From assembly GCF_009688945.1 (NCBI RefSeq), contig NZ_AP021874.1, positions 2,542,001-2,606,000 on the forward strand: a DNA stretch of 64,000 bases, read 5' to 3'. The notes under the pieces are model-generated. The model was not told the DNA's origin, made no database searches, and worked only from the letters and a program-made list of their open reading frames with translations. Both the position numbers and the translations under genes were made by a program. This document shows positions 441 to 60,423 of this stretch, piece after piece; within the stretch, counting starts at the first letter, position 1; each line of letters begins with the position of its first letter. The DNA comes from Desulfosarcina alkanivorans. GTDB taxonomy: Bacteria > Desulfobacterota > Desulfobacteria > Desulfobacterales > Desulfosarcinaceae.

Positions 441-1262
441 TCAATCATCCAACAATTCCAATCGTTCCTGAAGCCGTTCGAGTTCGTCGAAATGGCTGTA
501 GATGTATTTGGGGTCTTTGATCTGGCTCCAGCGGTCGTAAAACGCATCCGCCGCCCCGCTGTCGATCTCCTCCTGGATCCGGGCAATCTGATATTGCAGC
601 CGCTCCTGCTCACCGGCGGCAACGGAACGGTCAGGGTTCTCCACGATGGCGCCCTCCTGCCCGTCCGCCGCATCGGTTGCCGCCGATGCACCGACGGTGC
701 CGCTCTCCTGCGACAGCACTGAACCGCCTGAGAGGTGGTGGGGTTGCTGTGGACGGGCTGAGGTGGCGTCCCTCCCGTGAATACGGCCGGTCCCGCGCCG
801 GCCCCCTTGCGCCCGGGCCTGCTTCATGCGGGACGCGGGCCGGTCGTTTCCGGCGGCCACCGGCTTCATATCCGACGTCGGCAAGGATCGCCCCGAGGCC
901 ACAGAAGGGGTGACCGCCGCTCCCGGGTGCGGTTTTTCAAAACTGCTGTAGGAGTGCGACGGATCATTGAAAATGACCGCATAGCTGTATCCCTTGAGGA
1001 CCGATTTGAGGTTGTCCATGGGCGACCGGTTGGCGAGGTCGACAACAACACGCGCCGCCCCCAGTTCTGCGAGGATGGTGATATGGGCGTTCAGTTGGTC
1101 GGCAAGCAGATCGACCGCCCGGCCGATGGGCATGGACCGGGCCGATGGCGTGGCGGCAGGTCCGGGGAGCCCCCCGTCCACGGCCGCCGCACCCCCGGCG
1201 GGGACGAGCAGTACCAACAGGATCAGGGGCCAGCACCAGGTTGTCAACCGGACGGTCCTCAT
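441..1262 (-). CDS. Secreted protein with an STN-like (secretin/TonB short N-terminal) domain
   Basis: A 273-residue protein with a signal peptide (about residues 1-28, LLVLLVPAGGAAA). Residues about 44-100 resemble the STN fold found at the N-terminus of secretins and signalling TonB receptors: PIGRAVDLLADQLNAHITI, then VVVDLANRSPMDNLKSVLKGY. The middle (about 110-195) is low-complexity, rich in Gly, Arg and Ser. The C-terminus (about 205-273) is charged and probably alpha-helical or coiled coil. No barrel follows, so it is not itself a receptor or secretin. Its ATG overlaps the stop of the MauE-thioredoxin gene (ATGA). In a locus with TonB, ExbB and ExbD, an STN-bearing periplasmic protein could contact the energising complex; that is inference. 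Confidence 0.65.
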   Translation of the reverse strand: MRTVRLTTWCWPLILLVLLVPAGGAAAVDGGLPGPAATPSARSMPIGRAVDLLADQLNAHITILAELGAARVVVDLANRSPMDNLKSVLKGYSYAVIFNDPSHSYSSFEKPHPGAAVTPSVASGRSLPTSDMKPVAAGNDRPASRMKQARAQGGRRGTGRIHGRDATSARPQQPHHLSGGSVLSQESGTVGASAATDAADGQEGAIVENPDRSVAAGEQERLQYQIARIQEEIDSGAADAFYDRWSQIKDPKYIYSHFDELERLQERLELLDD

Positions 1263-2212
1263 GCGCCTTTCTCCTCTCTTTCAATAACGTCGACCAGCGC
1301 CCTTCGTTCCGGCACCTTATCCTGCCACCGTGCGAGGGTCCGGCCGTTCTGGATCAACAGGTATTGCGGCAGCGGATCATCCTTCATCAGGGCCAGCAGG
1401 CTTTTTTCGGTGACCGGCAGCACCGGATAAAAGGCGAAATTCTCCTCGACGAAGCGGTCGATCGCCGCCTGGTCATCGGCTGCCAGGGCATAGACCGTGA
1501 GGGCATTTCCGGCCTCGGCCACCATCTCATTGAGCAGGGGCACCGACTGGCGGCAATGCATGCAGTCGGTGGCCATCAGGGCCACCAGACAGGTGCCGGT
1601 GTTCAGGTCGACCTGTCCGCCGGACGGGGTTTGCAGGACCATGCCGGCCGCTTGGCCGGACGCCTGGGACGCCGACGCCGATTGGCGTGCTTGCAGGGTG
1701 CCAAGAGCCAGTGGCAGGGTCATGGCGATGACGGCGGTGGTGGCAACGGCCAGCGATTTCATCGGGTGCCGGTAGTAAATCGCCCGGTCCTTGAGCTTCC
1801 AGGCGGAGAAGGCGAAAACAAGCAGCAGGCCATCCTCGATCATCGCCTCCGTCGGGCTCCTGCGGGCGGCCGGGCCAAAGCAGCCGCAATCGGAGACACC
1901 GCCATGGACCATGGCCCAGGAGAGCGCCCCCATGAAGAACAGCAGGAGCAGGATGACCCCGGAAAGGGAGGCTTTAGGCCGCCAGTTGGCCACCAGGGCG
2001 GCCCCGAGGATCACTTCAACGACCACCATGAACCAGGCCGCGGCAACGGCCGGCCGGGCATCGTCGGGCAGGATGCCGTACTGCCGGATCTGCAGGGCGA
2101 ACTGGTCCAGGTCGACGCCTTTGAATGCGCCGGCCGCCAGCAGGATGGCGCCTAAAACAATGGTGATGAAGCGATAGCCCAGAAGGCGGGTGTCGGGTGC
2201 TGTCCGGTTCAT
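1259..2212 (-). CDS. MauE/DoxX-like membrane protein fused to a thioredoxin-like domain
   Basis: 317 residues. The first ~145 form a four-helix membrane domain like MauE/DoxX, with a conserved cysteine pair DCGCFG near residues 105-110. After a fifth membrane segment (about 148-168), a thioredoxin-like domain faces the periplasm with a CxxC active site in TDCMHC near residue 215 and a cis-Pro-like DPLPQYLLI near residue 285. MauE-type proteins are known to support disulfide formation in exported proteins; the fusion resembles VKOR- or ScsB-type redox relays. GAGGA lies a few bases upstream of the ATG, seven bases after the preceding gene. It may serve the cysteine-containing exported proteins of this operon. 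Confidence 0.8.
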   Translation of the reverse strand: MNRTAPDTRLLGYRFITIVLGAILLAAGAFKGVDLDQFALQIRQYGILPDDARPAVAAAWFMVVVEVILGAALVANWRPKASLSGVILLLLFFMGALSWAMVHGGVSDCGCFGPAARRSPTEAMIEDGLLLVFAFSAWKLKDRAIYYRHPMKSLAVATTAVIAMTLPLALGTLQARQSASASQASGQAAGMVLQTPSGGQVDLNTGTCLVALMATDCMHCRQSVPLLNEMVAEAGNALTVYALAADDQAAIDRFVEENFAFYPVLPVTEKSLLALMKDDPLPQYLLIQNGRTLARWQDKVPERRALVDVIEREEKGA

Positions 2213-2219
2213 GATACGA

Positions 2220-2924
2220 TTATTCCTCGTCCCGAAGGGTGTGGTCGTCGATGTTGTCCAGGTAGCCCTGGATCAACTGCTCCAGTTCCACTTTCTTGAT
2301 CTGGGTGAACGGTTCGGTGTGCAGGATGGTGTTGGCGAACACCCCGTCTTCGTCATACCGGACGAGGATCGACTGGGCGGTCGCAGCCATCTGGCGGTTC
2401 TCGTCCAGGTAGCGGTCCCGGGTCCGCGTGGCGAATTGAAGATCGGATTCCAGCTGCCGGGTATTTTCCGTCATCGCCGCGATGGCGGCGTCGCGCTCAC
2501 TGATGGTTGCCCTGGCCTGGCGGTGGGCGTCGGTCAATTTGGCATGGCTTTCCTTCCATTGGGCGATCGCCTCATCTTTTTTGGCCAGGCGGCCCTCAAG
2601 GGCCCGTATCTTCCCGGCGTTTTTCTTCTCCAGGGCGGCCATTTCGGCAACCTGCGCGGCCACCTGTTCGGCCAGGGCTTCGGCCTTCATTTCCGCCTGC
2701 CGCTTCAATCCCTCAACGGTCAGCCTGGCCCGCTGAAAGGCGGCGGCCTGGGCCTTCTGCTCGGCGTATTTGCGCTGCAGCAGCTCGGCCCGGTGGGCCG
2801 TCTTTTCAAGGTCCTGCCCCAGCGCCGCGTGTGCCTTGCCCAACGCATTCAGGCGATAGCCAAGGTAGCCGCTCAAACCGACGCTAAGAAAAAGCACCAG
2901 GCCGATGATGATCTTCTTACCCAA
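2220..2924 (-). CDS. Membrane-anchored coiled-coil protein
   Basis: About 234 residues from a proposed TTG start, which has AAGGTG five bases upstream and lies 19 bases after the porin stop. Upstream ATGs would overlap the porin gene and add a non-hydrophobic leader. A single membrane segment (KIIIGLVLFLSVGLSGYLGY) at residues 3-22 is followed by about 150 residues of continuous Ala/Glu/Lys/Gln-rich heptads (coiled coil). The last ~50 residues (SILVRYDEDGVFANTILHTEPFTQIKKVELEQLIQGYLDNID) form a compact conserved-looking tail. It is not a recognised family. The topology, inner-membrane anchor plus long periplasmic rod, resembles adaptors that span from an inner-membrane machine to the outer membrane. 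Confidence 0.75.
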   Translation of the reverse strand: MGKKIIIGLVLFLSVGLSGYLGYRLNALGKAHAALGQDLEKTAHRAELLQRKYAEQKAQAAAFQRARLTVEGLKRQAEMKAEALAEQVAAQVAEMAALEKKNAGKIRALEGRLAKKDEAIAQWKESHAKLTDAHRQARATISERDAAIAAMTENTRQLESDLQFATRTRDRYLDENRQMAATAQSILVRYDEDGVFANTILHTEPFTQIKKVELEQLIQGYLDNIDDHTLRDEE

Positions 2925-2943
2925 TGGTGCACCTTTATAATCG

Positions 2944-4623
2944 TTAGAAGCGGGCATTGACATCCACCTGCAACGTATCCACCCCAAACTGCGGCCCTTC
3001 GATCTCATCCGAAGAGAGCCACCGGGTGGTCAGCCAGACGTTGCGGTACAGGCCGTACTCCCCCTTAAGGATCCAGCCTTTGGCGTTGGTGCCGCCCAGG
3101 TGGAAATCGGAATCCGTGAATGCGTCCAGCACCGCATCCGCGCCCAGGTACTTGTATTTCAGGCCCACGTTCCATTCCCCATGATTGGTGATCACGGGGT
3201 AGCCGATGGTGGCGCCCACCATGTAGCCGTCCGTGTCCTCCACCGGGTTGTCATTCCCGGTGACCTCGGCAACGTGGTCCCGGTCAAATCCGAGATTCTT
3301 GACATACTGGGCTTCAAGAATCATTTGCACCGGATAGAAAATACCCAAATTGGCGTTAAAATATATATCCAGGATATCGTAATCGGTTGCCAGCGCAGAT
3401 TTAAGAGAACCGGTCGGATCGATATCCATCAAGGTGTTTCCCATCTGCATGAAGATCGGCGCGGTAAAATCATAATAATTGGGACGATCAATATCGTTCT
3501 GGATGCCTTCGATATTCTGGTAATCATAGTAGGCTGTGCTCAAGGTAAACAGCATGTCGTAGCTGGGCCTGTATTCAAAACCGACCTGCCCCCCCCAGAA
3601 CCATTTGTCCCGGCTCTGCAATTCTTCCTCTTGAAGGGGAAAAATGCCGGCGGTGAAAAACAGGTTGAACGGCTGCATCTGCTCCGTATCGGTCTCGTAG
3701 CCGACGGCGGCGCCCTCGAAGTTCAGATCGGAATCCCACACCAGATCGCTGGAGAACCACGGGTTGGCAAACCGGCCGCCCACGAGGCTGACCTGGGGCA
3801 TGCGGTCCCACACCGGATCGATGGGGTGCCACTTCCACTTAAGGTAGGCGCGATCGAAGACAAAACTGTCGCGGTTCATGTAATCGCCCATGGTTTCGTT
3901 GGTGGAAACCGGCTCTTCTTCATTTCCGGTGGTCATGCGGAAGCCGGCCTCCACCTTGCCGATGTTGGTCTCCCGGAAGTCCAGCAATTTGGCCTTCATT
4001 CCCAGGCGTGCACGATAGCGGAAACGATGGCGATCCGTGTTGTTATACTTCACATCGTCATCCCCGGGGTTGTCCGGGTCGGAAATGGAATCGTTATTCA
4101 ACAAGATATCGTTCCCTTCAGCAAAATAATCGCCCTGGTAGCGAAGTCGGACGTCGCCGCTGAGGGTAATCCGCTGAGCCCATTCGGATTTGATGGCCTT
4201 GTCCATCAGCGGGTCCAGGGTGTTGGCCTGCATGTCGTCGATGCGCCGCACCAGCAGCCGCTGGTCGTTTATCGTCGCGTCGCTGGTTCGTCGGGTATCC
4301 TCCCGCAGGGCCTTCACATCCGCCCTGGTGGCCGGCTCCGGCCGGGTGTCGGCGGCAACCGGGATTGCGGCCCCGCCGGCGTCCGGAGTCTCCGCCGGTG
4401 GCGTCGTTTCGGCGACTTCCTTCGCTGGTTGTCCGCTGACCCGTTCCATGAAGGCCGCGGCCTCGTCGCCGGTGATGATGCCCTTGTCCTCCAGCAGTTC
4501 GATAATCGCCCGGGTCTGGTCGTCGGACAGGCCGGGAGAGGGGTCGCCGGCAAAAAGGGACCCCGCCGAGGAAAATATTAAAATGCCGGCCATCAACACG
4601 GCCACTCCGTTTCGCATGTGCAT
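2944..4623 (-). CDS. Putative porin with N-terminal coiled-coil segment
   Basis: About 559 residues from the ATG at 4623, chosen because GGGAG lies six bases upstream; an earlier ATG at 4641 lacks this. It has a signal peptide (to about residue 26, GSLFAG), a short helical region LSDDQTRAIIELLEDKGIITGDEAAAF, a Pro/Ala linker and a helix (ADVKALREDTRRTSDATIN...RRIDDMQ) likely to trimerise. A beta-barrel of about 400 residues follows, with alternating aromatic strands and the C-terminal Phe (DVNARF) needed for Bam-dependent insertion. It matches the general plan of the bacterial putative-porin family (Porin_5-like). It lies directly downstream of the TonB-like gene and could be a TonB-driven or passive outer-membrane channel of this locus. 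Confidence 0.8.
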   Translation of the reverse strand: MHMRNGVAVLMAGILIFSSAGSLFAGDPSPGLSDDQTRAIIELLEDKGIITGDEAAAFMERVSGQPAKEVAETTPPAETPDAGGAAIPVAADTRPEPATRADVKALREDTRRTSDATINDQRLLVRRIDDMQANTLDPLMDKAIKSEWAQRITLSGDVRLRYQGDYFAEGNDILLNNDSISDPDNPGDDDVKYNNTDRHRFRYRARLGMKAKLLDFRETNIGKVEAGFRMTTGNEEEPVSTNETMGDYMNRDSFVFDRAYLKWKWHPIDPVWDRMPQVSLVGGRFANPWFSSDLVWDSDLNFEGAAVGYETDTEQMQPFNLFFTAGIFPLQEEELQSRDKWFWGGQVGFEYRPSYDMLFTLSTAYYDYQNIEGIQNDIDRPNYYDFTAPIFMQMGNTLMDIDPTGSLKSALATDYDILDIYFNANLGIFYPVQMILEAQYVKNLGFDRDHVAEVTGNDNPVEDTDGYMVGATIGYPVITNHGEWNVGLKYKYLGADAVLDAFTDSDFHLGGTNAKGWILKGEYGLYRNVWLTTRWLSSDEIEGPQFGVDTLQVDVNARF

Positions 4624-4791
4624 GTAACACTCCCGCTTCAATTGAGTTTGTCTTGTTTTGTTTTTTGGATATCGTCCGAATGTTGAAAACGTCTGCGGAT
4701 CTCGTGCGCAACCGGTCGGGGAAATGGCCCTGGCTGGTCCACGCCCGGTCCGACGACAGCCAGGCAGGTAAAACCCGTCAGGCGCGTCCGT

Positions 4792-5490
4792 CTACCCCTT
4801 TGCAGAGATCTTGAGTTTGATAATCCGTGGCATGCCCCGGGGAGGCGGTTCGCTGATCGTGGCCAGCTTCAATGCATTGACCACCGCGTCGTCCATCAAG
4901 GGGTTTCCGGAGGACCGGGAAATATCGAAATTGACGATCTTGCCGAGATCATCGAGGGTGATTTGGACCTGCGTCTTGAGATTGCCGTCGGGGATGCCCC
5001 CGTTCTCTTCCATGTGGCGGTTCATCCGCTTGCGCAGCTCCTCCTGGATAATGCGGGTATACCAGCCGTAGCGGCGCATCATGGATGCATCACTGAGCGT
5101 ACCGCCGATCAGCGCCCGCCCCCCTTTCCTGGCCTTGAGCCCGAAGCCGTCCGAACCGGCCGTGCCGTCGGCATCCAGGCCCAGGTCCTCGCCGGGCGGG
5201 GTATCGTCTTCAGCCATGTCGTCTGCGGGTTCAGGCGGCGTCTCCTCCGGCTCAGGCTCGATCATCTCCTCTTTTTTCTTGATTTCCGGCTCCGGGGGTT
5301 TTTCCTTTATTTTGGGCGGCGGCGGCGGCTTGACGACGGTCACCATCTGAATCCGGCGCTTGCGGCGCTGGGAGTCGTCCTTCAACAGGTACTTGAGAGC
5401 GAAGACGGCGCCGGCGACAAACAACACCACCAGGCAGGCGGCCACGCCACCGATGATGAACCTGGTTTTTCCTTTTTTATGCTTACCCAT
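4792..5490 (-). CDS. TonB-like energy transducer
   Basis: 232 residues. The N-terminal anchor GGVAACLVVLFVAGAVFAL spans residues about 13-33. The periplasmic linker is rich in Pro, Glu and Lys (VVKPPPPPKIKEKPPEPEIKKKEEMIEPEPEETPPEP, residues ~50-90). The C-terminal domain (about 135-232) has the TonB-family pattern: VQITLDDLGKIVNFDISRSSGNPLMDDAVVNAL, then a Pro-rich IS-EPPPRG turn. It is the usual size for TonB. With ExbD (6901-7308) and the ExbB-fusion (7309-9099) encoded nearby, a complete ExbB-ExbD-TonB motor can be assembled from this operon. Its outer-membrane partner is not obvious; no plug-barrel receptor is in the window. Confidence 0.88.
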   Translation of the reverse strand: MGKHKKGKTRFIIGGVAACLVVLFVAGAVFALKYLLKDDSQRRKRRIQMVTVVKPPPPPKIKEKPPEPEIKKKEEMIEPEPEETPPEPADDMAEDDTPPGEDLGLDADGTAGSDGFGLKARKGGRALIGGTLSDASMMRRYGWYTRIIQEELRKRMNRHMEENGGIPDGNLKTQVQITLDDLGKIVNFDISRSSGNPLMDDAVVNALKLATISEPPPRGMPRIIKLKISAKG

Positions 5491-5712: not shown

Positions 5713-6723
5713 TCAGCCAGCAGGCTCCCGCTGCCCCCGGACGTTGACCAGAAACCCCAGGGCGACGGCCAGGGGAAGCGCGCGGACGCAGATATTGTAA
5801 ACCAGTTGGGACAGAGGAGCCAGCCATTCGAACCCGAACGCCGTGATCCATACATTGCACAGCCGGAAAGCCGCCTGAAACAGGGTCAGGGCCACCAGGC
5901 CAAGGGCCAGCCATCGCAGGCGCATGACCGGGCCGGCGCCCCTGACCGCCATCAGCAGGCCGCCCAGGGCGATCAGGCTGAAGGTCTGGTAGTAGAGATG
6001 GTGGGTCCGGGGGATCACCAGCTGGAGGCCGTTCAAGCGAAAGAACGCGCCGATGAGGGTGTCGATGGCACCGACATACAGACGGTTGAGGTGTATCCAG
6101 AAAAGAAACGGCAGGCTGGAAAAAATCAAAAACCGCAGGCAGAAAGCAGCCGGTCCGTTCAGGCGGTCCGCATGGGATTGCCATCGGCACCACAGCAGGC
6201 AGACGGCGATGGTCGCCACCAGCATGCCCAGCTGGCCGAAGTAGACATGGGCCGTTTCGAACCAGTCAGGAAACTGCCGGCCGACCAGGGTGACCGCGGC
6301 AATCCGGATGATGTTGACGGTAAACAGCAGGACCGTCCCCGCTGCCCATCCGATCCATTTCCCGGCACGGGGCGCCGGAAAGGCTGCGGTAAAGGCGGCG
6401 TACAGGACCATGAGCTGGACGGCCGAACATTCGGCGATCACATTGACGCTGAAGCCGCCGGTGCTGATGCGGGTGCCCCGCACCACCGGTTCCAGACCCG
6501 TCAACCGGATCAGGTCGCCGACCAGAAGGGCGGTGAGCCGGTTGAGCGGCTGGAAAACGGTTTCGGGAACCAGACTGACGGCAAGTATGCCAACCACGGT
6601 GGCCAGCAGGAATTTTCGGGTGAACGGCAGCAACAGGGACCGCCGCCCGACGGCCCGGCGGCCGGCACCCGCCGACACCTGACGTTCTGCCCTCCTGATG
6701 CCTTTTGCCCGTTTTGCCCGCAT
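5713..6723 (-). CDS. Exosortase/archaeosortase-family transpeptidase (not XrtD)
   Basis: 336 residues with about eight membrane segments. The catalytic triad of the family is present: Cys in NVIAECSAVQLMVLYAAF (about residue 118), Arg in FTVNIIRIA (about residue 156) and His in WFETAHVYFGQ (about residue 178). Exosortases are membrane cysteine transpeptidases that cleave C-terminal sorting tails and are thought to attach proteins to the surface matrix. The single domain followed by extra helices, without EpsI, resembles short exosortases such as XrtH rather than XrtD. I cannot assign the subtype. None of the complete proteins of this operon carries a classical sorting tail. It follows ExbD, with a MITE-like insertion between. 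The ATG at 6723 has only a weak ribosome site, so a later start is possible. Confidence 0.8.
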   Translation of the reverse strand: MRAKRAKGIRRAERQVSAGAGRRAVGRRSLLLPFTRKFLLATVVGILAVSLVPETVFQPLNRLTALLVGDLIRLTGLEPVVRGTRISTGGFSVNVIAECSAVQLMVLYAAFTAAFPAPRAGKWIGWAAGTVLLFTVNIIRIAAVTLVGRQFPDWFETAHVYFGQLGMLVATIAVCLLWCRWQSHADRLNGPAAFCLRFLIFSSLPFLFWIHLNRLYVGAIDTLIGAFFRLNGLQLVIPRTHHLYYQTFSLIALGGLLMAVRGAGPVMRLRWLALGLVALTLFQAAFRLCNVWITAFGFEWLAPLSQLVYNICVRALPLAVALGFLVNVRGQREPAG

Positions 6724-9099: not shown

Positions 9100-9104
9100 A
9101 AACG

Positions 9105-9109: not shown

Positions 9110-9184
9110 ACGATGATGTATAACTTAAAACCAATTGAACCTGCCTGCCTCTCACCAGCTGCTTCATTCCTCAGCACTCAGCCC

Positions 9185-15100: not shown

Positions 15101-18100
15101 ATAATCCGCCAGCGTGATATCACGGTTGGCATGGAGGCTAATGGTCTCAAATCCTGACAGAGCGATATCGCCTGCGATGTCAATCCAGTCTGCGGTAAGC
15201 TTCAGGTTGCCACCCTGCAGGGCGGGGGATTCTTCTCCTGGCCAATAGGTATTGGTCAGAACGATCCATGGCGCACTCAGGGAAACAGAATGGTCATCAG
15301 TTGAGATAATCGGCGCATCCAGTGTCAGTTTACCGTCAACGTGGGTTGTCAATTCATCCGCAAACTGGATTTCTCCGTAACTTGATATGGTAATATTGTC
15401 AAAACCCGAATGAATATAGGTTTGCATGTCTTCGGATCCCACGGAAAGGGCTGTAAATGAATCGGTTCGTGTCAACGACAGCGTGCCTCCGATCATTCCG
15501 TCCAGCCGGGCATCCGCTTTGATCACGCCATCAAGTTGCAACTCTTTGGAGTACTCAAATTCAAGGGTACCCGGTGAACCGGCAGTTGTTTCCCCGGTGT
15601 AGCTTCCATTCGGAGTCAAAAGCAAGTGTTCAATGCGATCGGTGCCGGACACATCCAAAACCGCGTCGGGTTCTACGAATAGATTAAACGCCGAAAGGCT
15701 GATAGCGCCGCCATCCAATGGCTTGTAGGCGACAGCGACGCCCGTATCCGCAAGTAAATCGGCAGGCATCAGGTATGCTGCTGCTGATACCAAGGATCCA
15801 GATTCGATGGCCAATGCTGCTCCACTCAAGTCGGAAGTCGACTCCAACCCTATGCTTCCCGCTGGCGCCGAAACTGTGCCCGCAATCTCAACCGAAGGCC
15901 CTGATACAGATATGTTTCCCATTGGAGAAACAATGACCGAAGCATCGGAATCCACTCGTGCCGTCGCCCGTTGGTTGAGAGCATCAATTTCTCCCGGAAT
16001 CACATAGTGACCACCAAGGGATTTTCCGGCGGTGAGCGTAATGGAGGACTTCTGGATTTCATTGGTATCTGCACGTATGTATTCTCCGTTGTTGTATACA
16101 TCCTCTGCAGAGGTATAGTTTGCAATATTCCCGTTGGAATCCACTGCACCAGAGCCTGGGCCTGAAATTTTCAAGGTAGACGGTTCAAGCTTTACCCCGT
16201 CCTCGACAGCTATATCAGTCACACTGGTCAAAACGATGTTTGAAGCTCCGGTCAAATCGATCTGGTCGTCACTGATCATCAAATGGGTTGCCACCCCTTC
16301 GAGAAGCGGATCTGTAGCGCCCAGATCGGTGATAATCGAATTCGGTTCCGGCTGTTGTGCCGCAACGGTTACCTGCTGGGCATGGAGATCAAGCGTACCG
16401 CCATTGGCGCCGGAGAGCGAATGGGTGTAAAGGTCCCCTTCCAGAGCAATGGACGATCCGGCGACCTGGATAGATCCGCCGTCACCACAGTCAACCTCAC
16501 CACTTTCGTCGATCCGCCATCCGCCGCTGGCATCGATGGCGGCTCCGGGCATGATTATTACACCTTCACCGGCCAGGGTTCCGTCTACAAGGCTGACATC
16601 GCCACCCTCAATACGACTGTAGTCGGAAATCAAACCTTCCAGGCTTGCTGTCGTTGAAAGGTCGACCTGCTGCCCTGAAACGTCGATGATGCTTCCCGTA
16701 GCCAGATAGATGCGTTCATAGCCCAAATCGGCGCTGCTGACGTATTCGGGGTTGGGTTCGCTGCCCACAAATTCATCGGTTGTCAGGTTGCTTGCCAGTT
16801 CCATGGAAACGCTGCCTTCGGGAATAACGATTGTTCCGTGATGTTCGATGTGCCTCCCGAACAGGGTCAAAGAACTGGTTGGATCCATCGCGATGCGTGC
16901 ATCGGCATCCACGACGATGCCTTCCCGCACCGCCAGGGTGACATTTTTCAAACTGGAATCGTTCAAAATTTCTTCCGAAATCATCGACACCCCAGCCAAC
17001 GCATCGGGAAGATCACTGGTGGCACTGAAATCATCCGGCAGGATAAATTTTTGGGCACTCACAAGGATCTCTTCAACAATCGGATCCACATCCTCATACC
17101 TGCTGTCGGTGAGCTTTTTTCCTATGTTAAAAGTTCCCGCCGAGGGTCTGACGGTTCCAAGGGTAGACTGGTAGCCGTTTTCATCCTGGGTCTCGGTTTC
17201 CTCGACCTGGTAGACACCCGGTAGCACTGAACCGTCCAAAGTGGCATTGAGCAGCACCACTGGTGCATTGACATTAAGTATGCCAGCGTCGGCGCCTTCC
17301 TGATACCCCGCGTGGTAGTTCAGGATGGGATTTGCAGATCCCACGTAAAACCCGCCACCGTAGCTCGTCGTAATACCGAAGCGCTCATTGGTGTCGCTGA
17401 TCGGATTGTCCGGCCCGATAATGGCGTCATAGGCGACGTTTTCGGGCGCATCCTCGATACGATAAACTTGGTTTCCCGAAATCAGCAGGGTCGTTTCGAC
17501 ATGCCCCTCCTCGTAGATGATTCCGCCGCCGGAAAAATCGAGCATCGATCCCGAACGGGCAACCACATCGCCTCCGGAATCGATCTGGATTATGCCCCCT
17601 TGTGTGCTGAATTCCAGAGCGGTTTTCTCTTCTGAATTCAAGGCTCCGGAAACGTCTCCAATCCCTGAGCCCTCAACCTGGTAAAAATAGATCGTTTCTC
17701 CCTGGAGGGTCCCATCTTTCTGTGCATAGTCATCTTTAAGCTCCACACTATTGAGTTGGAGGCTGGCCACTGAGGACCCTGCGGGCAAAATCACCCAATT
17801 GCCGCTGACATCAATGAGGCTTTCGGAATCAAGGTAAACCCGGCTGTCAGCGTTCAGGGAAACACTGCCTGAGGGTGCGACGATGGAGCCCTTGACATCA
17901 ATCAAACCTCCGCTGCTGATATCGATTTCGCCGCCTCCGAATTCAAAAGACTCATGCACCGTTTCGCTGGACGTGGAAATCGGGCTTTCTGTCCGGCTTT
18001 GCTCGCCAAGGGTAACCGTTTCGGAGGCCTTGAGTTCGATCTGCCCGTTGCTTTTGACGGCCGTTACCGCCCGAATCAGGCCTTCCTGGTTGACGACCCG

Positions 18101-18919
18101 TCCGTACATCCCGACGTTGCCCAGTTCGGCCTCCAAACGACCACTATCATAGTTGACGGCCAGACTGGAATCGCCGCCGGCGTTGACCACGGTCTTGTTG
18201 TTGGATGCCTGAATCTGATTTTCCATTGTAACCGTGGTTCCGGAGGCCAGAATGATGTTGCCCAGCGGCGCAGTGATGGAACCGCTGTTCTCTACAGTCG
18301 GCCCCAGTAAAATCACCGACCCGTTTTCATCCGTCTGGATCGTTCCATGATTGGCAACCACTGCGGCAGCGCCATCGTACATGGACGCATCCATATAATT
18401 TTGCGTTTCGAAAGCCCGCGTGCCAGCCAGAAAATCATCATTGGTCAGGTTCAGTGAAGAGGCCACCAAAGAATGAATATTTACCGAGGCTCCCGGGCTG
18501 AAGAGCATTCCGTTCTGGTTGATCAGGTATACCGTACCGTCGGCGGTGAGTTTGCCGAAGATCTGGCTGGGGTTCTGGTCATAGATGCGGTTGAGCGCAC
18601 TCCAGTTGGTATTTCCCTGCTGGTCGAAGTGGGTCCATGCGTTGACGCCTATATCGAAGGATTTCCAGTCTACAATCGCCTTTTCCTGATCCTGATGGAC
18701 AATGAGGCCGTTGTTACTCACCTGTTCAAGACCAGCAACCCCCTGAACGATGTTCTGAATCTGCGGAATCTGGTTGGCTGCCGGCGCTACCAGATTACCG
18801 ACACCACCATAATAGCCCGGAATGCTTGCTGCGAAAACCGGCGTCGCAGGGCAGCAGGCAAGTGCCAGCGCAAGGTAAAGGGCCATCATTCGATTAACGG
18901 ATCGTAAACGTCTCATCAT
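9185..18919 (-). CDS. Giant filamentous-haemagglutinin-like TpsA exoprotein
   Basis: 3244 residues. Signal peptide to about residue 30 (ALALACCPATPVFA), then a haemagglutination/TPS secretion domain at about 35-290, with NPSQIFGKL (116-124), YLINQNGMLFSPGASVNIHS (131-150) and ANHGTI. The rest is a beta-helical filament of degenerate ~20-residue repeats (GxLxIxAxxxIxxxG and DVSGxG types). Near residues 2920-2970 there is a helical, charged break (FFDDLREQGQEYSAALAEGDTEAAQQILDEIN). The C-terminus is acidic/lysine-rich (DQEGEKEKK) with no sorting tail. GAGG precedes the ATG. Its partner TpsB is encoded 168 bases upstream. It is probably a surface adhesin or matrix protein. TpsA/TpsB pairs normally need no ExbB-ExbD-TonB, which makes the gene order here unusual. 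Confidence 0.93.
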   Translation of the reverse strand: MMRRLRSVNRMMALYLALALACCPATPVFAASIPGYYGGVGNLVAPAANQIPQIQNIVQGVAGLEQVSNNGLIVHQDQEKAIVDWKSFDIGVNAWTHFDQQGNTNWSALNRIYDQNPSQIFGKLTADGTVYLINQNGMLFSPGASVNIHSLVASSLNLTNDDFLAGTRAFETQNYMDASMYDGAAAVVANHGTIQTDENGSVILLGPTVENSGSITAPLGNIILASGTTVTMENQIQASNNKTVVNAGGDSSLAVNYDSGRLEAELGNVGMYGRVVNQEGLIRAVTAVKSNGQIELKASETVTLGEQSRTESPISTSSETVHESFEFGGGEIDISSGGLIDVKGSIVAPSGSVSLNADSRVYLDSESLIDVSGNWVILPAGSSVASLQLNSVELKDDYAQKDGTLQGETIYFYQVEGSGIGDVSGALNSEEKTALEFSTQGGIIQIDSGGDVVARSGSMLDFSGGGIIYEEGHVETTLLISGNQVYRIEDAPENVAYDAIIGPDNPISDTNERFGITTSYGGGFYVGSANPILNYHAGYQEGADAGILNVNAPVVLLNATLDGSVLPGVYQVEETETQDENGYQSTLGTVRPSAGTFNIGKKLTDSRYEDVDPIVEEILVSAQKFILPDDFSATSDLPDALAGVSMISEEILNDSSLKNVTLAVREGIVVDADARIAMDPTSSLTLFGRHIEHHGTIVIPEGSVSMELASNLTTDEFVGSEPNPEYVSSADLGYERIYLATGSIIDVSGQQVDLSTTASLEGLISDYSRIEGGDVSLVDGTLAGEGVIIMPGAAIDASGGWRIDESGEVDCGDGGSIQVAGSSIALEGDLYTHSLSGANGGTLDLHAQQVTVAAQQPEPNSIITDLGATDPLLEGVATHLMISDDQIDLTGASNIVLTSVTDIAVEDGVKLEPSTLKISGPGSGAVDSNGNIANYTSAEDVYNNGEYIRADTNEIQKSSITLTAGKSLGGHYVIPGEIDALNQRATARVDSDASVIVSPMGNISVSGPSVEIAGTVSAPAGSIGLESTSDLSGAALAIESGSLVSAAAYLMPADLLADTGVAVAYKPLDGGAISLSAFNLFVEPDAVLDVSGTDRIEHLLLTPNGSYTGETTAGSPGTLEFEYSKELQLDGVIKADARLDGMIGGTLSLTRTDSFTALSVGSEDMQTYIHSGFDNITISSYGEIQFADELTTHVDGKLTLDAPIISTDDHSVSLSAPWIVLTNTYWPGEESPALQGGNLKLTADWIDIAGDIALSGFETISLHANRDITLADYFYDTKDSLPVVWSGSLETAADLLIDADRLYPTTQTVFILSSGGDLTTRSTTDNSTAAPVMSAGGSLAVNAANITHTGKWYAPAGQLQFTVDSQDGRIYLENGSILSVAGGARVNYGMMDDEAVVWQVLDKASNKYVEFEGALESTVSLSGDEVVMQDGALVDLSGGGEIFAYGFLPGVEGSTDPLEETYVIVPGAGNSGETIYLEGNALVDEGFYTILDESFAFSDGAMIVEDLGAAAGTYGDNSLTSEGYPISAGYTTVGSETGATYATSQPHYFSVRESSDVLAEGNFTIEQITTGDAGSLSVQANTTIFNATVQSTALEGYTGGTLSLASKKVIANTAGAQLPADFSADSPIPDELMDQLIVNATAISNSAFETVTLGDTAITEQVVFDAGSILEAVNLTVAASDRIVVASDSMLSASGEAGGILSLISPEGMISIEPSATLHATHDIRLDTINLNLDGNLEVDNSSLTLINESIFITANHDIASISNGLFIDEAMWAKVEGIDSINLCSHSDITFLSDFRMQAADILTLDSDRIVLSTGVDVTVEASQIQLQNTSLKGEVFAEIDNPTNGPAGSLFFQSDDMTIVFGAMTDQGGADDAANDLSIIGAGAMTIQAANELVVSGTGNLVTQGDLSIESAAIMTALTASVDDNGAVTYATADAGMISSSGTVFTQANGNTWTPPDSYGGELTLKGRAVDHSGLILSPAGSVQLVATGTTDGDGIYLREGSSIDARGSDYATSGTVFLETEHGSIEIAAGAIVDVSAGGQGDAGAVSIFAPEKNVSIEGDLYGQAGEGGGGGSFYLETLSINDFATIAELLAESDFEGKVELLARQGNITVNETDEMTADSITLLTDGGSVVIEGELDASGTEGGGTLEIYASDDINLLDGSVLDASATEAGDGGQVLLAAASGTIDFHEGAKINVSGSGTDFSNGAVYLRAIRNENGITGTTGMNMVLKGEIVGASAVIAEGVGIYENNTVTADYLDGLVDQAADWTAHLRLDNDTTPAVENILTVLAGIEIRSAENLAVTEEIDLAGYAEDMAYGVLTLRSAGDLIIGADIIDARTDVLTLRENTAQESWGINLVAGANFAGSDFMAIDRSSGSLPGRILFEDGVRVYTENATIQFASAGNTQLGVVGSQDEPMTNNRMQYNIGSFNGTVFGLVGGDLNMKDGGIQTATGDIRIEITGDLNFIREENTIGAIRTIGEAPDPDPYTNANELRNLLNRYWSYADGGDIDLEVQGDVIGQPFAIDCWDASSYNGAFYHAEYSNGGSRGIVTMAGGDITLNAGGRVTCAVGLFGMGDLDLTAKQDLDGRFLVYDGQIDLNSYENFGTLTSFDNQPIEAFDTQIELVAQGSIELGTILNPTIANYDYSGPSDWDLRYTEASSVALRAITGSVMLTGSTRFYDNLADQKSRIRILPGTLIIDAATDILIGQSFYLAPSEAGNLALTAGGDIRSMSVDSDSQNRYILAMSDVDPSLVYGLAEDGRAAYQLITDTYAHSDALLHKDDPVAATITATGDVRDVLLYIPKASSLIAGGDIADIFYHTQNVNLDDVTVIAAGNDIRFSTGIGTTYQAGIEIGGPGSIIVTAGNSIDLGTTSGIQAVGNLYNQVLPTPDEELDEPAMRLAVYSGVEIDVTESSGKLDQTEGFFDDLREQGQEYSAALAEGDTEAAQQILDEINSDTIDPFFDGVAKGGGDIDMVNSQIYTSGNAGDIYILATGEINVGKSTFRQATDQSDNSGIYTTSGGSINVYVDDDLNVNESRLMTFMGGDITAWSQDGNINAGRGSKTAISVSEATVDLSGDEPKIVFTPPAVGSGVRALTYDPDGVEGPEEQPEIGDIYIFAPQGEIDAGEAGIAGKNIILAATKVVNVQNIEVGGSSVGVPDVSASAASIGALAGSGAVSETSNIAGEQTALGNAKERFSEYVADLTETLVPKWLAVEVVGFGEPSDSAVTREVPVDQEGEKEKK

Positions 18920-19087: not shown

Positions 19088-20716
19088 TTAAAATTGGAAC
19101 TTGGTCAGAAAATAGACAACGTTGTCGCCGCTATCGGTATCGGTGGTGGCTTCAAGGGCCAGGCCCCAGTCCACCACGACTTCGATGCGGTTATCCCATG
19201 TCCCCCGAATCCCGACGCCCGTTCCTTGAAGCGTGGTCTCCTCATCTTCACCGGGAAGTGGATCGTTCACCGTGAGATAGGCTGCGTCGTAATAAGCTCT
19301 CAGGTTGATTTTCAGCCGGTCCCCCCATTTGAAAAGGTCCGCCAGATTTGGGCTGGAGAACGTGAAATTGCCATGCAGCGCGTTGTCGCCGCTGGCCTCG
19401 CTCTCTTTGTAACCGTGAAGGCTCATCATCCCCCCCACTGTGTATTGCTCGTTGGAAATCAGAGGTTGGTCCGCCAACTGACCGTTGATTTTGGCCAACA
19501 GGCTCATGCCCAGGGGCAAATTTTGCTCCCGATCCACCCCTGCCCCAAAAATGATATAGTTGCCCCTTGCGTTGTAGCGTTTGTTAACAAATTCGGACTC
19601 GCTGCTCACCAGCCCCCTCAGGGCCAGATCCAGCCCGGTGCTAAAGCGGGTCACGCCTGATTCACTGCGCAGCGAAGAGCTGTATGATACACTTAACGGA
19701 ACATAGGTCACCGGCGTCTCCTCCACGTCGTCGCCAAATCCAAGGTCTTCGTCGAAATCCTTGTAGTCGACGCCAAGCGTAAGGTTATGGGCGTAGTCAT
19801 TTAACCGCGGTAGCGGCATAATTTCGCGATAACCGACGATATAGCCTTTCCCGAGCACCGTAAACCCGCTGCCGAATGCGGTATCACTGTCGGAAATGAC
19901 GCCGTATAAGACACTCATGTTGTCCTCTCCGAAAAAGGACGGCCACACATAGGAGCCGGATATCAGCTTGACCTCCTGGGTATCCTCAGGAGATGTCTGA
20001 AACTGAAACGAAATGGCATGGTCCTTCTGCCAGAGGTTGTCGTAGCGAAGCATGCCGTTGAGCCGCAGATCGGTCGTGGTGTGGGTATTGCGGTTGTTGA
20101 GTTCCAGGCTGCCATGCAGGGGCAGTTTGTCCTTGACCTTGAGTTCGACATCGATGGTGCCCAGTTCCTTGCCCGGCATGAGCACCGGAGCCACCTTAAG
20201 GTCGGGATTGCGGTTGATTACCGCCAGTTCACTCTGCACGTTGGGCACATAGAGCATTTTGCCTTCCCTGAAGGTCGGCAGGGCGTTCAATATCTTCTCC
20301 ATAGTAAAATATCGGTTGCCCGTAATTCTCACCCTGCGGATCTTGCTTTCGATCACCTCCAGACGCACAATGCCGCCTTCCACTGTCTGTTCGGGGATGT
20401 TGACCAGTGCGGTGGGGTATCCTTTCTCGTGGTAGTAACGCTCAAGGGCAAAGCGAGCCTTTTCAACGTCGTCAGCGGTTTTACCGCTGCCCAGGTATCC
20501 GCTCAACACTTCCAATAAGATCTCTTGTGGGAAAACCGAGTTTCCGCTGACCTCAAATTCATCAATCTCGAAAGTGACCAACGTGTCATCGGACCCGGCC
20601 AGGGCAACACCATGACAAAAAAGGATTGAAAAAATCAGCAGTACGAATAGCAGACGCACGATTACCGTTGGGATTGGCCTGTCTGACGACGGCACGTTCG
20701 AATGATTGTTTTCCAT
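19088..20716 (-). CDS. TpsB outer-membrane transporter (ShlB/FhaC/HecB family)
   Basis: 542 residues with signal peptide to about residue 41 (FCHGVALAG). There are POTRA-type domains at about 46-200: FEIDEFEVSGNSVFPQEILLEVLSGYLG, KARFALERYYHEKGYPTALVNIPEQTVEGGIVRLEVIE and ITGNRYF. The barrel domain follows (GSLELNNRNTHTTTDLRLNGMLRYDNLW ... LYGVISDSD ... VDREQNLPLGMSLLAKINGQ ... QYTVGGMMSLHGYKESEASGDNALHGN), ending in Phe (FLTKFQF). It secretes its TpsA partner (9185-18919), the next gene of the operon. The start is supported by GGAG four bases upstream. The VGGxxSxHGYxE motif is the conserved FhaC-type VRGY/F loop region in slightly divergent form. Confidence 0.92.
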   Translation of the reverse strand: MENNHSNVPSSDRPIPTVIVRLLFVLLIFSILFCHGVALAGSDDTLVTFEIDEFEVSGNSVFPQEILLEVLSGYLGSGKTADDVEKARFALERYYHEKGYPTALVNIPEQTVEGGIVRLEVIESKIRRVRITGNRYFTMEKILNALPTFREGKMLYVPNVQSELAVINRNPDLKVAPVLMPGKELGTIDVELKVKDKLPLHGSLELNNRNTHTTTDLRLNGMLRYDNLWQKDHAISFQFQTSPEDTQEVKLISGSYVWPSFFGEDNMSVLYGVISDSDTAFGSGFTVLGKGYIVGYREIMPLPRLNDYAHNLTLGVDYKDFDEDLGFGDDVEETPVTYVPLSVSYSSSLRSESGVTRFSTGLDLALRGLVSSESEFVNKRYNARGNYIIFGAGVDREQNLPLGMSLLAKINGQLADQPLISNEQYTVGGMMSLHGYKESEASGDNALHGNFTFSSPNLADLFKWGDRLKINLRAYYDAAYLTVNDPLPGEDEETTLQGTGVGIRGTWDNRIEVVVDWGLALEATTDTDSGDNVVYFLTKFQF

Positions 20717-20771: not shown

Positions 20772-22115
20772 TCATTCTTCGTCTTCTACCTTCGACGCCG
20801 CCCCAACATGTTTAATCGCGTGCGCCGCTTGCTGCATTCCGGGACCTTCCCCGAGCACCTTATTCAGCGCCAGGGCCAGAGTCCCGCCATCCTGAAATCC
20901 ACCCATTTTTTTGACGATCTCGCCGTGTGGATCCATCAGTACGACCATTGGAAACCCATCCTGCTCGAAAACCTCCTTGAAGACCCGTTCTTTATCCGAA
21001 TCGATTTTCAACCATACAAAACGGTCATGGTAGCGCTTGATACGCGGATCATTAAAGGTGTGGGTAAGCAGCCGCTGGCTCCACTGGCACCATTCAGCGT
21101 AAAGCACCAGCACCAGGGGTTTTCCGGTGGTCGCCGCCTGTTCCATGGCTGTGTCGTGGTCCTCGATCCAGGGCATCTCGATCTTCTCGAAAACGCTGAA
21201 CTTTTTCAGGTCATTCACGGACACCTCAAAGGTCAGATTCTTACCGGCCAGGGGGTGGTTATAGTCCACGGTGAAATGGGTTTCATCCTTGCCGCTGACG
21301 ACCCCCTTTTTCTCGTTGGCATCAAAGGAAGCACCGATGGTCGGATCCAGGGTAAGTACGATGCGATCCGTTTCCACCGCGAGCGTGGCCCGGCCAAATG
21401 GTTCCTCTACGGTTTCGCCGTCCGCAGCGAGGTTATCCAGGGTGACCATCCCGGCTTTAACGCCATTCACCCTTGAAGGAAAATAGGGAGACAATCGCAC
21501 AATCTTGCCGGTTTCCGGCGCGGTGTCGAAGTTTTTCAGAAAAGCGCTGACCGGGAGCACGGTGGTTTTGGGCAGGTTCCGCCGGCGGGGATAGGTCTCG
21601 ATCTTGCTCTCATCGGCGGGTCCGAATCCCTTTTCCGATGATACCGTGACCGTACGCCGCTGGCCCGGCTGCATTCCCAGCACGGCATGGCCGGCTCCGG
21701 GAAAAAGGCCGGATAGGCCGGCAAGCAGGGTTTCGGGACCGGTGGCCGCCCCGGCTTGGGCGAAGAAAACCCGGTAGCGGGCGTCGATGCGTGCAAACAT
21801 CTCCGGCCGGGTGGAATATACAACGCGCCCTTGCGGGTCGAGGACCGTGTATTCCGCAGTCACCAGATCCGCCGGCTGAACGGTGTCCGCATCCTCTTTA
21901 AGGTGAATGTAGACATCCTTTTGTCCCCTGGTTTCAGCAGCCTCAATGGACTGATTGATCAATTGCTGAAAGGACTCGTAGTCATTGACAGCAGCTTCGA
22001 TGGGGCTGTCCGCTTTGGATCCGTCACCCGCATGGCAGGCAACACCGGCCACCATCAATACTGCAGTGCAAAGAGTGGCCAGCGCCTTGAAATACATCTG
22101 GGCAGAAACATTCAT
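20772..22115 (-). CDS. FKBP/SlyD-like domain fused to a thioredoxin-like domain
   Basis: About 447 residues from the ATG at 22115, which gives a signal peptide (ALATLCTAVLMVAGVACHAG); earlier frame extensions are polar. Two FKBP-like parts can be seen: DLVTAEYTVLDPQGRVVYSTRPEM ... HAVLGMQPGQRRTVTV (about 80-180) and FTVDYNHPLAGKNLTFEVSVNDLKKF (about 295-325), the latter close to the SlyD/FKBP signature. The C-terminal 120 residues are thioredoxin-like with VLYAEWCQWSQRLLTHTF. This site is CxxS rather than CxxC, as in isomerase-type or mixed-disulfide-trapping domains. It would act in the periplasm on exported proteins, plausibly the unfolded TpsA substrate. The pairing with the next FKBP-like lipoprotein is notable. 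Confidence 0.8.
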   Translation of the reverse strand: MNVSAQMYFKALATLCTAVLMVAGVACHAGDGSKADSPIEAAVNDYESFQQLINQSIEAAETRGQKDVYIHLKEDADTVQPADLVTAEYTVLDPQGRVVYSTRPEMFARIDARYRVFFAQAGAATGPETLLAGLSGLFPGAGHAVLGMQPGQRRTVTVSSEKGFGPADESKIETYPRRRNLPKTTVLPVSAFLKNFDTAPETGKIVRLSPYFPSRVNGVKAGMVTLDNLAADGETVEEPFGRATLAVETDRIVLTLDPTIGASFDANEKKGVVSGKDETHFTVDYNHPLAGKNLTFEVSVNDLKKFSVFEKIEMPWIEDHDTAMEQAATTGKPLVLVLYAEWCQWSQRLLTHTFNDPRIKRYHDRFVWLKIDSDKERVFKEVFEQDGFPMVVLMDPHGEIVKKMGGFQDGGTLALALNKVLGEGPGMQQAAHAIKHVGAASKVEDEE

Positions 22116-22197
22116 TTGGGATTGCGTCCTTTTTTTTGAAGAAAGGCGTGGATGCAGTCTTTCTCCAGTTGCAACCATTTTTTTGGGGTGTCGACGC

Positions 22198-23043
22198 TTA
22201 TTCGGTATCTTGTTCCAAGGGATGGGCCGTCACCTCGCACGCCAGTTCACGCCCGCCGAAAGGATGGTCGAAGTCAACGGTAAACAACCGGTCATCGATT
22301 TTGCTGATGCGTCCGATGTACGGCCCGACGCGCACCAACCCCCCCAGCCGGACGTCGATCTCAAAGTCGTAGTGATCGCCCCGATCGCGTACCACTGCTT
22401 CGCCGTAGTGCATCATTACTTTTTTGCCGTCTTCGATCAGATATCGGACCTCCACAGTATCTTCTTTTACGGCAATCACCTGCCACTGCATGACCTGGTC
22501 AGGGAAGAGCACCTGGCCGGCAGACGGCTCCTGCCCTGTGTTGGCCACGAACTGCTCCTTGGGGACGCTGCGCTGCTTGGGACGCTGCATGGTACGGGCA
22601 AACTGAATGAAGCGTGCCATGTCAGACAGTCCTTCGATGGCCTCGGCGCCTACGGTCATGGCGTGGGTTTCTTCATATGTCTGTCCGGTGAGCTGGTGTG
22701 AGACCTGGTAGGCAATTTCAGGCATAAGCGGAAGAATGTCCGGCGGCGCCGGCAGACGTCTTTCGGCACCCGCTGTTATGGGTATCGCGGCGTAGGCTTT
22801 CGTGGGCATGAAGGCATGGGAAAGTTGCGTCCCATCGGCAAAGGCATCGGCCCTGCTGGTGGTGGCCAAAATGGCACCGTCCTCGAGGCGGCAGGTGTAG
22901 TCCAGCAGCACCTTGTCATCGCCGGCGATCGGCGGTGGCGGCGGCGAAATCGTTGCGCATCCGGCCAACAGGGCCGCAAAAAGGGCGGCCATCAACGGAC
23001 GCCAATTGTTCACAACGGTCAGGTTTCGTCGCATCGGCAGCAT
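22198..23043 (-). CDS. FKBP/SlyD-like peptidyl-prolyl isomerase-type lipoprotein
   Basis: 281 residues with lipobox ALLAGC at about residues 24-29, then a Pro-rich spacer (ATISPPPPPIAGDD). The start of an FKBP-like fold is visible in KVLLDYTCRLEDGAILATTSRADAF, and its end in LFTVDFDHPFGGRELACEVTAHPLE. About 150 residues are inserted between. The same FKBP terminal motif occurs in the next gene, so the two are likely diverged relatives. GGAG lies nine bases before the ATG. It is the first gene of the operon reading toward 1, so the main promoter should lie in 23044-23150. Likely an outer-membrane-anchored periplasmic chaperone; the isomerase activity is inferred from fold similarity only. Confidence 0.78.
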   Translation of the reverse strand: MLPMRRNLTVVNNWRPLMAALFAALLAGCATISPPPPPIAGDDKVLLDYTCRLEDGAILATTSRADAFADGTQLSHAFMPTKAYAAIPITAGAERRLPAPPDILPLMPEIAYQVSHQLTGQTYEETHAMTVGAEAIEGLSDMARFIQFARTMQRPKQRSVPKEQFVANTGQEPSAGQVLFPDQVMQWQVIAVKEDTVEVRYLIEDGKKVMMHYGEAVVRDRGDHYDFEIDVRLGGLVRVGPYIGRISKIDDRLFTVDFDHPFGGRELACEVTAHPLEQDTE

Positions 23044-60419: not shown

Positions 60420-60423
60420 CAGG

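Follow-up and report, generated by a model that had tools for sequence, protein, structure and literature searches.

A conserved gene cluster joining a two-partner secretion pair to a Ton-type motor in Desulfosarcina alkanivorans, with a possible role in phosphate scavenging

Introduction

The outer membrane has neither ATP nor an ion gradient to drive two-partner secretion (TPS). Why, then, should a TPS pair be encoded side by side with a proton-driven motor? The question is raised by a gene cluster at 441-23043 in a 64-kb stretch (the window, by which we mean the whole of the DNA analysed) of the 7.32-Mb, single-contig genome of Desulfosarcina alkanivorans (NZ_AP021874.1), where genes for a TpsB transporter and a giant TpsA protein stand next to genes for ExbB, ExbD, TonB, an exosortase, a porin and periplasmic folding factors. 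The initial annotation of the window had read this set as an energised system for secreting, folding and fixing a surface filament. TPS export, proton-driven Exb/TonB action and the pairing of exosortases with CTERM tails are each established for their families. The accessible text of a 2017 TPS review holds that type V translocation is not powered by any energy source, poses what drives it as a question and does not contain the term "ExbB" (PMC5422565). Here, we report that the TPS pair and the motor form one conserved module, and we weigh what the motor may act on.

Results

The cluster is genuine and more than a local arrangement. Its core, encoded like all the genes named in the initial annotation by open reading frames of the minus strand, comprises TpsB (19088-20716, 542 amino acids [aa]; PF08479, E=1.2e-16, and PF03865, E=2.8e-13), TpsA (9185-18919, 3244 aa; PF05860, E=7.8e-22, and PF12545), an ExbB/TolQ channel fused to DUF2341 and LamG/ConA-like domains (7309-9177, 622 aa; PF10102, PF13385 and PF01618), ExbD (6901-7308, 135 aa; PF02472, E=1.4e-28) and a TonB/TolA-like protein (4792-5490, 232 aa; PF13103, E=1.1e-11). 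Two hallmarks of type Vb secretion are present, namely a TpsA with a TPS secretion domain and a TpsB with POTRA domains and a ShlB/FhaC barrel, as are those of a Ton/Tol system: a three-helix ExbB channel, an ExbD with its membrane Asp and a TonB/TolA-type periplasmic protein. A third type Vb trait, energy-free export, is put in doubt by the linked motor.

Among 297 Desulfobacterota genomes (the phylum sample), the ExbB fusion was matched at E 1e-25 in 23 and along its full length in five, the window genome included. Three of the other four are represented by long contigs, with 44-45% identity in the fusion, and all three keep the order FKBP-like, FKBP-thioredoxin, TpsB, TpsA, ExbB fusion, ExbD, TonB, porin. 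Two peptide patterns derived from the fusion, run against the genome_contigs collection (84,980 species), hit 62 loci. In 50 of these, from Desulfobacterota, Geobacter relatives and Nitrospirota, nearly the whole length of the fusion is matched (starting at residue 104 in L080 and spread over two frames in L081). These 50 loci were chosen by the fusion alone, so that their neighbouring genes constitute an independent observation. A TPS gene was present in the locus in all 48 cases with at least 1 kb upstream, and TpsA lay directly upstream of the fusion in 46 of them, the other two (L044 and L067) being rearranged with TPS genes still beside the motor. ExbD accompanied the fusion in 49/49 assessable loci, TonB in 45/47 and Porin_5 in 43/44, and an FKBP-type gene was found in 28 of the 31 loci whose upstream regions were examined. 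As a control we took 20 TpsB loci of the phylum sample, none at a DUF3739 site and three being second TPS loci of motor genomes; in the stretches examined, shorter than 20 kb at contig ends in 12 of the 20, not one held a relative of the ExbB fusion, ExbD, TonB or porin, nor of the FKBP-type, PstS-like or PEP-CTERM proteins described below. Conservation in 50 other loci together with absence from these 20 controls excludes a chance arrangement.

DUF3739, the domain near the TpsA C-terminus, was found in five of the 297 genomes, the same five as the full-length fusion and at the same place. Full-length fusion, DUF3739 TpsA and PstS-like protein co-occur in an identical set of five; were genomes independent of one another, which is not the case, one such identity would arise by chance with a probability of 5e-11. 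In a second sample, 148 genomes of the phylum of G307 (Nitrospiraceae; the Nitrospirota sample), DUF3739 was matched in seven genomes, three of them strongly, and those three are the full-fusion genomes. Five further genomes of this sample (G411, G414 and G443, from among the weak matches, and G453 and G461, which have a similar ExbB) carry a minimal cluster of TpsB, TpsA, unfused ExbB, ExbD and TonB, in which the divergent DUF3739-type TpsA has 1418-1558 residues and an end that matches the profile of the window TpsA C-terminus. In all five, no porin was found at E 0.01 by profile, and the stretch held no coiled-coil gene and no exosortase. The porin and the fused domains are therefore dispensable, the core being TpsB-TpsA plus ExbB-ExbD-TonB, and TpsB is the outer-membrane protein that is always beside the motor. 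Overall, DUF3739 above cut-off was accompanied by a Ton-type motor in 10 of 10 genomes (5/297 and 5/148); G333 gave a weak match below cut-off and has no ExbB of the window kind.

The linkage extends to plasmids, where 13 records carry the DUF3739 end, 11 the full-length fusion and 10 both; the surroundings were examined for four of the 11. TpsB/TpsA and ExbB-ExbD-TonB thus make up one conserved module in Desulfobacterota, Nitrospirota and Pseudomonadota plasmids, and the homologues are linked in related genomes rather than scattered. In the ordered set proposed by the initial annotation, TpsB-TpsA-DUF2341/ExbB-ExbD-exosortase-TonB, the order of TPS and motor genes is upheld; the position of the exosortase between ExbD and TonB was seen in the window only. 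As a separate observation, three plasmid loci (L096 13058-15869, L151 5772-8150 and L153 6425-8752) carry, next to TPS genes, VreA-VreI-VreR-like trios of an STN or TonB-C protein, an extracytoplasmic function sigma factor and a FecR/DUF4880 protein.

The channel residues are conserved: the membrane Asp motif of ExbD was found in 49/49 relatives and the helix-2 motif of ExbB in 50/50. The window motor gets a better score from the TolQ model than from the ExbB model, with neither reaching its cut-off. A family search found no TonB-dependent transporter with plug and TonB box in the cluster, in which the barrels are TpsB and Porin_5; the Porin_5 domain spans residues 42-565 of the porin, and Pfam found no plug domain. 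We considered DTLVTF, just before POTRA1 of the window TpsB, as a TonB box and rejected it, as nothing alike was conserved among relatives by eye. Two groups of loci from the scan match the fusion in part. L084-L089 (Verrucomicrobia) share only the ExbB part, with the same WGVMNTF stretch, and have an ExbD-like neighbour and no TPS gene that we could find, and L090-L095 (Candidatus and candidate-division records) match in the DUF2341/LamG part only.

The TpsB proteins beside the motor differ from the controls at their N-termini. The distance from signal-peptide core to POTRA1 was at most 31 residues in 24 of 33 motor TpsBs and in 3 of 19 controls (Mann-Whitney p 0.001, relatedness ignored), leaving little room for a plug helix in most motor TpsBs. 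This comparison used frames over 450 aa, excluded split TpsBs (L101, L130, L099), partial ones and control L138, counted the gene shared by L044 and L117 once, and included two plasmid-borne motor TpsBs. Two motor-less TPS loci, L147 and L150, have a short N-terminus and a TpsB nearer the motor type than other controls; judged by these sequences, they are possible motor-less cousins.

TpsA consists of an N-terminal TPS domain, a long middle part, DUF3739 and a C-terminal tail motif, W-L-x-V-x-V-I-x-F, which was conserved in 43 of 49 relatives, three of the six misses (L042, L050 and L075) looking like variants; the C-terminal alignment took frames of at least 345 aa and did not include L080, L099 and L064. 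In a model of the C-terminal 345 residues (mean predicted local distance difference test [pLDDT] score 77), a strand-rich part with a helical hairpin, which may be read as the end of a beta-solenoid, is followed by residues whose pLDDT falls below 50, then by a helix, and last by an end of low confidence in which the conserved motif lies.

The conserved neighbourhood runs past 23043 to two further minus-strand genes. The first encodes a PstS-like binding protein (23215-24528, 437 aa) with PstS 1 as best PDB match (E=5.6e-10, over 59 residues); a candidate phosphate-loop motif, RxxGSGT, was found in 26/26 relatives and in 3/4 of those in minimal loci. At E 1e-10 the family occurs in five of the 297 phylum genomes, the same five as the motor. 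At E 0.001 it was matched in 17 of the 148 Nitrospirota-sample genomes, with frames over 400 residues in eight, namely the three full and five minimal motor genomes (in one minimal genome on another contig), and frames of 254-339 residues in the remaining nine. The second gene encodes a PEP-CTERM protein, of the exosortase substrate family (24593-25315, 240 aa; PF07589), whose domain scored 23.9 bits in the genome search (cut-off 20.7) and 19.6, below cut-off, in a single-protein scan. Its relatives (alignment of 27; 24-48% identity to the window protein) share residues beyond the tail. In the 31 upstream regions, the PstS-like gene was present in 26, the PEP-CTERM gene in 25 and both in 25. 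The six regions without the pair comprise L042 and L078, which carry the PstS-like gene on the other flank, one region of only 3.6 kb, the rearranged L117, L116 with the PstS-like gene alone and L129 with neither gene. The PstS-like protein is thus a constant companion that must be added to the gene set of the initial annotation.

Further genes lie around this pair. Upstream of the PEP-CTERM gene, a 1359-residue PKD-repeat protein (25893-29972, minus strand) has counterparts in the same place in L028, L101, L105 and L106. Two more PEP-CTERM proteins are encoded on the plus strand (35130-35720 and 36025-36750), and three of the genome's 10 PEP-CTERM matches fall in the window. A plus-strand calcineurin-like metallophosphoesterase with a choice-of-anchor I domain (44607-47612), near the 5'-nucleotidase described below, fits a phosphate-scavenging neighbourhood.

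The exosortase (5713-6723, minus strand, 336 aa) scored 85.6 bits against the XrtH model TIGR04177, just under its cut-off of 86, with conserved Cys, Arg and His and a conserved C-terminal extension of about 150 residues; in this alignment L162 is misaligned, and L034, L109 and L164 were left out. Some exosortase match occurs in 23 of the 297 phylum genomes, and a full-length protein with the extension in four, all of them motor genomes (4/5). Across 35 motor genomes (31 of the 50 loci, from 30 genomes on long contigs, plus the five phylum genomes), the extended exosortase was present in 16, once as a split gene (G297, where a cluster remnant is also kept), and in nine of the 16 it was either no more than about 14 kb from the cluster or shared a single short contig with TpsB. 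In L034 an exosortase follows ExbD at the contig end, and L035 has an exosortase remnant in the cluster. A chance insertion, first suggested by the four of four relatives with nothing between ExbD and TonB, was dropped because the extended subfamily tracks motor genomes. As a part of the system, then, the exosortase finds support in its restriction to motor genomes within the phylum sample and in its frequent proximity, and none in a conserved place in the cluster.

The further suggestion that the exosortase fixes TpsA is not borne out, since the TpsA C-terminus contains neither a membrane segment nor a CTERM-type tail. Proteins with PEP-CTERM or IPTL-like tails are better candidates, among them a secreted UshA-like 5'-nucleotidase with an IPTL-like C-terminal tail (37036-41277, plus strand), a probable client encoded about 30 kb from the exosortase. 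One client-like tail scored 20.2 against IPTL-CTERM (TIGR04174), just under the cut-off of 20.5; an IPTL-CTERM tail is what would be expected of an XrtH client. In four loci, a relative of the nucleotidase is encoded no more than 8 kb from an exosortase copy: L155 and L159, where the nucleotidase domain itself is visible, and L158 and L162, where the frames run off the stretch. A tail made up of VP[A/G], any four residues, a G, a hydrophobic stretch and a basic end was found in six of the 16 stretches examined (the window, about 30 kb off, L155, L158, L159, L162 and L163) and was not found in the other nine, besides L154, which has a variant without the G. The open frame of the extended exosortase continues, in L161 (9703-11001) as in L162 (9229-11268), past the enzyme into another sequence of secreted type without an intervening stop codon, which is either a fusion or a frame artefact. 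The window also holds a minus-strand exopolysaccharide locus (54535-63843) with an SLBB export protein, a long TPR protein, a sugar transferase, a glycosyltransferase and a second, EpsH-type exosortase with DUF3485.

The cluster was first described as 13 genes; 12 open frames are present, as one FKBP-like and one thioredoxin-like domain form a single protein. The order of transcription is FKBP-like lipoprotein, FKBP-like/thioredoxin fusion, TpsB, TpsA, ExbB fusion, ExbD, exosortase, TonB/TolA-like protein, Porin_5, membrane-anchored coiled coil, MauE-thioredoxin protein and STN-like protein. The accessory genes, all on the minus strand, begin with the second FKBP-like lipoprotein (22198-23043, 281 aa), assigned from homology with relatives' FKBP genes and conserved position; it had no Pfam match above cut-off, and an orthologue matches FKBP_C below cut-off. 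The fusion protein (20772-22178, 468 aa) combines FKBP-like (PF00254, below cut-off) and thioredoxin-7 (PF13899, E=2.6e-14) domains. Downstream of TonB follow the Porin_5 outer-membrane porin (2944-4641, 565 aa; PF16930, E=4.9e-129), the membrane-anchored coiled-coil protein (2220-3008, 262 aa; weak coiled-coil matches only), a protein with a MauE membrane domain and a thioredoxin-like domain (1259-2212, 317 aa; PF07291, E=5.5e-23) and the STN-like periplasmic protein (441-1262, 273 aa), an accessory known from its open reading frame, for which neither Pfam nor NCBIfam gave a match at E 0.1. Homologues of the coiled coil were found in 25/39 assessable fusion loci (in the relative G153, which lacks it, a SurA-like protein takes that position) and of the STN-like protein in 4/34, and no homologue of the MauE-thioredoxin gene was found in relatives' loci.

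Among the longest frames, two pairs overlap, by 4 and 65 bp. The intergenic gaps span 0-222 bp, the widest, of 177 and 222 bp, lying either side of the exosortase, which is flanked by a weaker terminator-like hairpin and a promoter-like site. A strong terminator-like hairpin, a 10-pair stem followed by a T run (23160-23185, minus strand), stands between the cluster and the PstS-like gene upstream. Promoter-like sites in the stretch are around chance (six found; mean 3.4, standard deviation [SD] 2.0), and terminator-like sites are above it (21 found; mean 9.1, SD 2.9).

Discussion

A published locus has the same core. According to the available portions of the work on Pseudomonas aeruginosa (PMC2729926, PMC7035377, PMC4971064), the gene order there is pdtA-phdA-pdtB-exbB2-exbD2-tonB4-PA0696 (a putative porin)-PA0697-PA0698-PA0699 (PpiC), one promoter serves phdA to PA0701, including pdtB and exbB2-exbD2-tonB4, PhoB and sigma-VreI control both pdt promoters in phosphate starvation, and the motor is called "still uncharacterized". 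PdtA and PA0696 increased in a low-phosphate proteome, as far as the accessible text of that report goes (PMC9769906). The window gene set is a relative of this published but unexplained pdt locus. Searches of the open-licence literature found no published test of a motor energising TPS export, no paper joining TPS, ExbB and exosortase and no paper on DUF3739. Among the matches listed, only the two pdt papers appear to concern a link of TPS with ExbB and ExbD, a further match (PMC4661593) being on an unrelated subject, and no TPS was among the matches listed for exosortase and PEP-CTERM.

From linkage and co-occurrence, we infer that the parts of the cluster work together. The joint function of motor and TPS pair is partly supported, and better so than by the sequence reading of the initial annotation alone. 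The best explanation of the whole, which we hold to be almost evenly poised between right and wrong, is a Ton-powered TPS system within a phosphate-scavenging surface programme. The 3244-residue TpsA would reach the periplasm through Sec and may there be held unfolded and reduced by the FKBP-like and thioredoxin proteins; TpsB would then pass it across the outer membrane. ExbB-ExbD, on the proton gradient, would drive the TonB/TolA-like protein to push or pull either TpsB or the C-terminal tail of TpsA, with its flexible linker, helix and conserved motif, such that export is completed or the very long surface protein is held and loaded. The porin and the coiled-coil rod would be auxiliaries. 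The PstS-like and PEP-CTERM proteins could be ligand-binding and surface partners, the ligand being phosphate or a like oxyanion, and the XrtH-like exosortase might anchor tailed enzymes such as the 5'-nucleotidase. We are more hesitant, to the point of leaning against it, about a wider generalization, that of a proton-motive-force-powered type Vb branch in several phyla in which the DUF3739 end and tail would give an ExbB-ExbD-driven TonB/TolA-like arm its handle for drawing the giant TpsA through TpsB, and the PstS-like partner would lead to surface phosphate capture.

In favour of Ton-powered export stand the shared genome sets, the linkage in 50 loci and its absence from the 20 controls, the minimal cluster in which TpsB is left as outer-membrane partner, the kept proton-path residues of ExbD and ExbB helix 2, the mostly short TpsB N-termini, the TpsA tail motif and, in P. 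aeruginosa, the promoter common to pdtB and the motor together with phosphate-starvation control. Several observations weigh against a Ton-powered export. TPS systems elsewhere work without an energy source, in vitro too, in the accessible review text (PMC5422565); the P. aeruginosa pdtA promoter is, in the portions of those papers at hand, separate from that of pdtB and the motor (PMC2729926, PMC7035377, PMC4971064), and zebrafish virulence is reported there as unchanged in transposon mutants of the tpsA, tpsB or tonB homologue. Within our own data, no conserved TonB box was recognised by eye in the alignment of TpsB relatives, the strict ExbB helix-3 pattern was met in 33 of 50 relatives only, the N-terminus is long in 9 of 33 motor TpsBs and in 4 of the 5 from minimal loci, and the TpsA tail is of low confidence in the model. 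In fusion loci, nearly all of which keep the porin, it may be this protein that the motor acts on. A DUF3739 TpsA occurs without the full-length fusion in three plasmid records, and the fusion without DUF3739 in one; in the three, the stretch examined showed neither TpsB nor any component of the motor, and VreAIR-reminiscent regulator genes lie beside TpsA. Lastly, pho-box matches in the window were not above chance (three against 3.6 expected) with an E. coli-type consensus that may not be the host's.

The strongest rival would have the motor energise uptake of phosphate or another solute through Porin_5, with TpsA as a capture scaffold bound to the surface and the PstS-like protein as the binding protein. 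This draws on the near-constant presence of the porin in fusion loci, on the PstS-like protein occurring in the same genomes as the motor, on phosphate-starvation control in P. aeruginosa, as reported in the available text, and, by analogy, on HxuCBA, in which the accessible review passages describe a TPS protein working with a TonB-dependent receptor (PMC5422565). However, the five minimal loci keep the motor and the PstS-like protein with no porin found, and the Porin_5 domain occupies residues 42-565 with no plug detected by Pfam; we consider uptake through the porin unlikely.

Co-regulation alone would place the genes in one starvation regulon, with the motor serving other receptors without touching the TPS pair. 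The accessible P. aeruginosa reports do describe a PhoB/VreI regulon that includes these genes plus a type II secretion system, but a shared regulon leaves unexplained why the motor co-occurs at genome level with one TpsA type, is kept in the minimal cluster and has no parts in any of the 20 ordinary TPS loci, which makes this reading distinctly improbable. The least probable is that TpsA is tethered by its C-terminal tail and tugged by the motor for adhesion or surface movement, in the manner proposed for Agl/Glt and Gld motors acting on surface adhesins: the TolQ-leaning motor score, the low-confidence linker with its conserved end motif and the giant, adhesin-like cargo suit it, but no gliding components were recognised in the cluster and the phosphate theme is left unexplained.

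A TPS branch with its own motor allows a direct genetic test of powered export in a pathway thought to be energy-free. If Ton-powered export holds, the uncharacterised exbB2-exbD2-tonB4 genes of P. aeruginosa would gain a partner, DUF3739 and the DUF2341-ExbB fusion would each acquire a function, and there would be a reason why an exosortase subfamily tracks motor genomes.

Among known systems, the window is akin to pdt, likened to PAO1 itself by gene order and annotation. Both combine TpsA, TpsB, ExbB, ExbD, TonB, a putative porin and a peptidyl-prolyl isomerase (PPIase) or folding factor in one locus, whereas the window has FKBP and thioredoxin proteins rather than PpiC, shows no VreAIR genes in its locus, and links genes for a PstS-like protein, a PEP-CTERM protein and an exosortase to it. 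A Klebsiella plasmid (L099) follows pdt in gene order, down to the YbjN, PPIase and LysR genes, with genes homologous to those of the window; L096 and L098 come near that order, and in L097 about 17 kb separate TpsA from ExbB-ExbD-TonB. With canonical TPS systems (FhaB/FhaC, CdiA/CdiB) the window shares the TPS domain, POTRA and ShlB-type barrel, and it differs from them in its dedicated Ton-type motor, its DUF3739 C-terminus and a TpsB that usually leaves no space for a plug helix. HxuCBA of Haemophilus influenzae is likewise, in the accessible review text, a TPS pair with a TonB-dependent step (PMC5422565), but the window has no plug-bearing TonB-dependent receptor and keeps the motor itself inside the cluster. 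The exosortase core and one client-like tail resemble the XrtH/IPTL-CTERM system (TIGR04177 and TIGR04174), from which they depart by scores just under both curated cut-offs and by the conserved C-terminal extension. Finally, the available passages of a study of ion transporters describe an ExbB-type A subunit with an N-terminal DUF2341, call its function unknown and give no partner (PMC12505986), whereas in the window and its relatives DUF2341-ExbB is tied to a DUF3739 TpsA.

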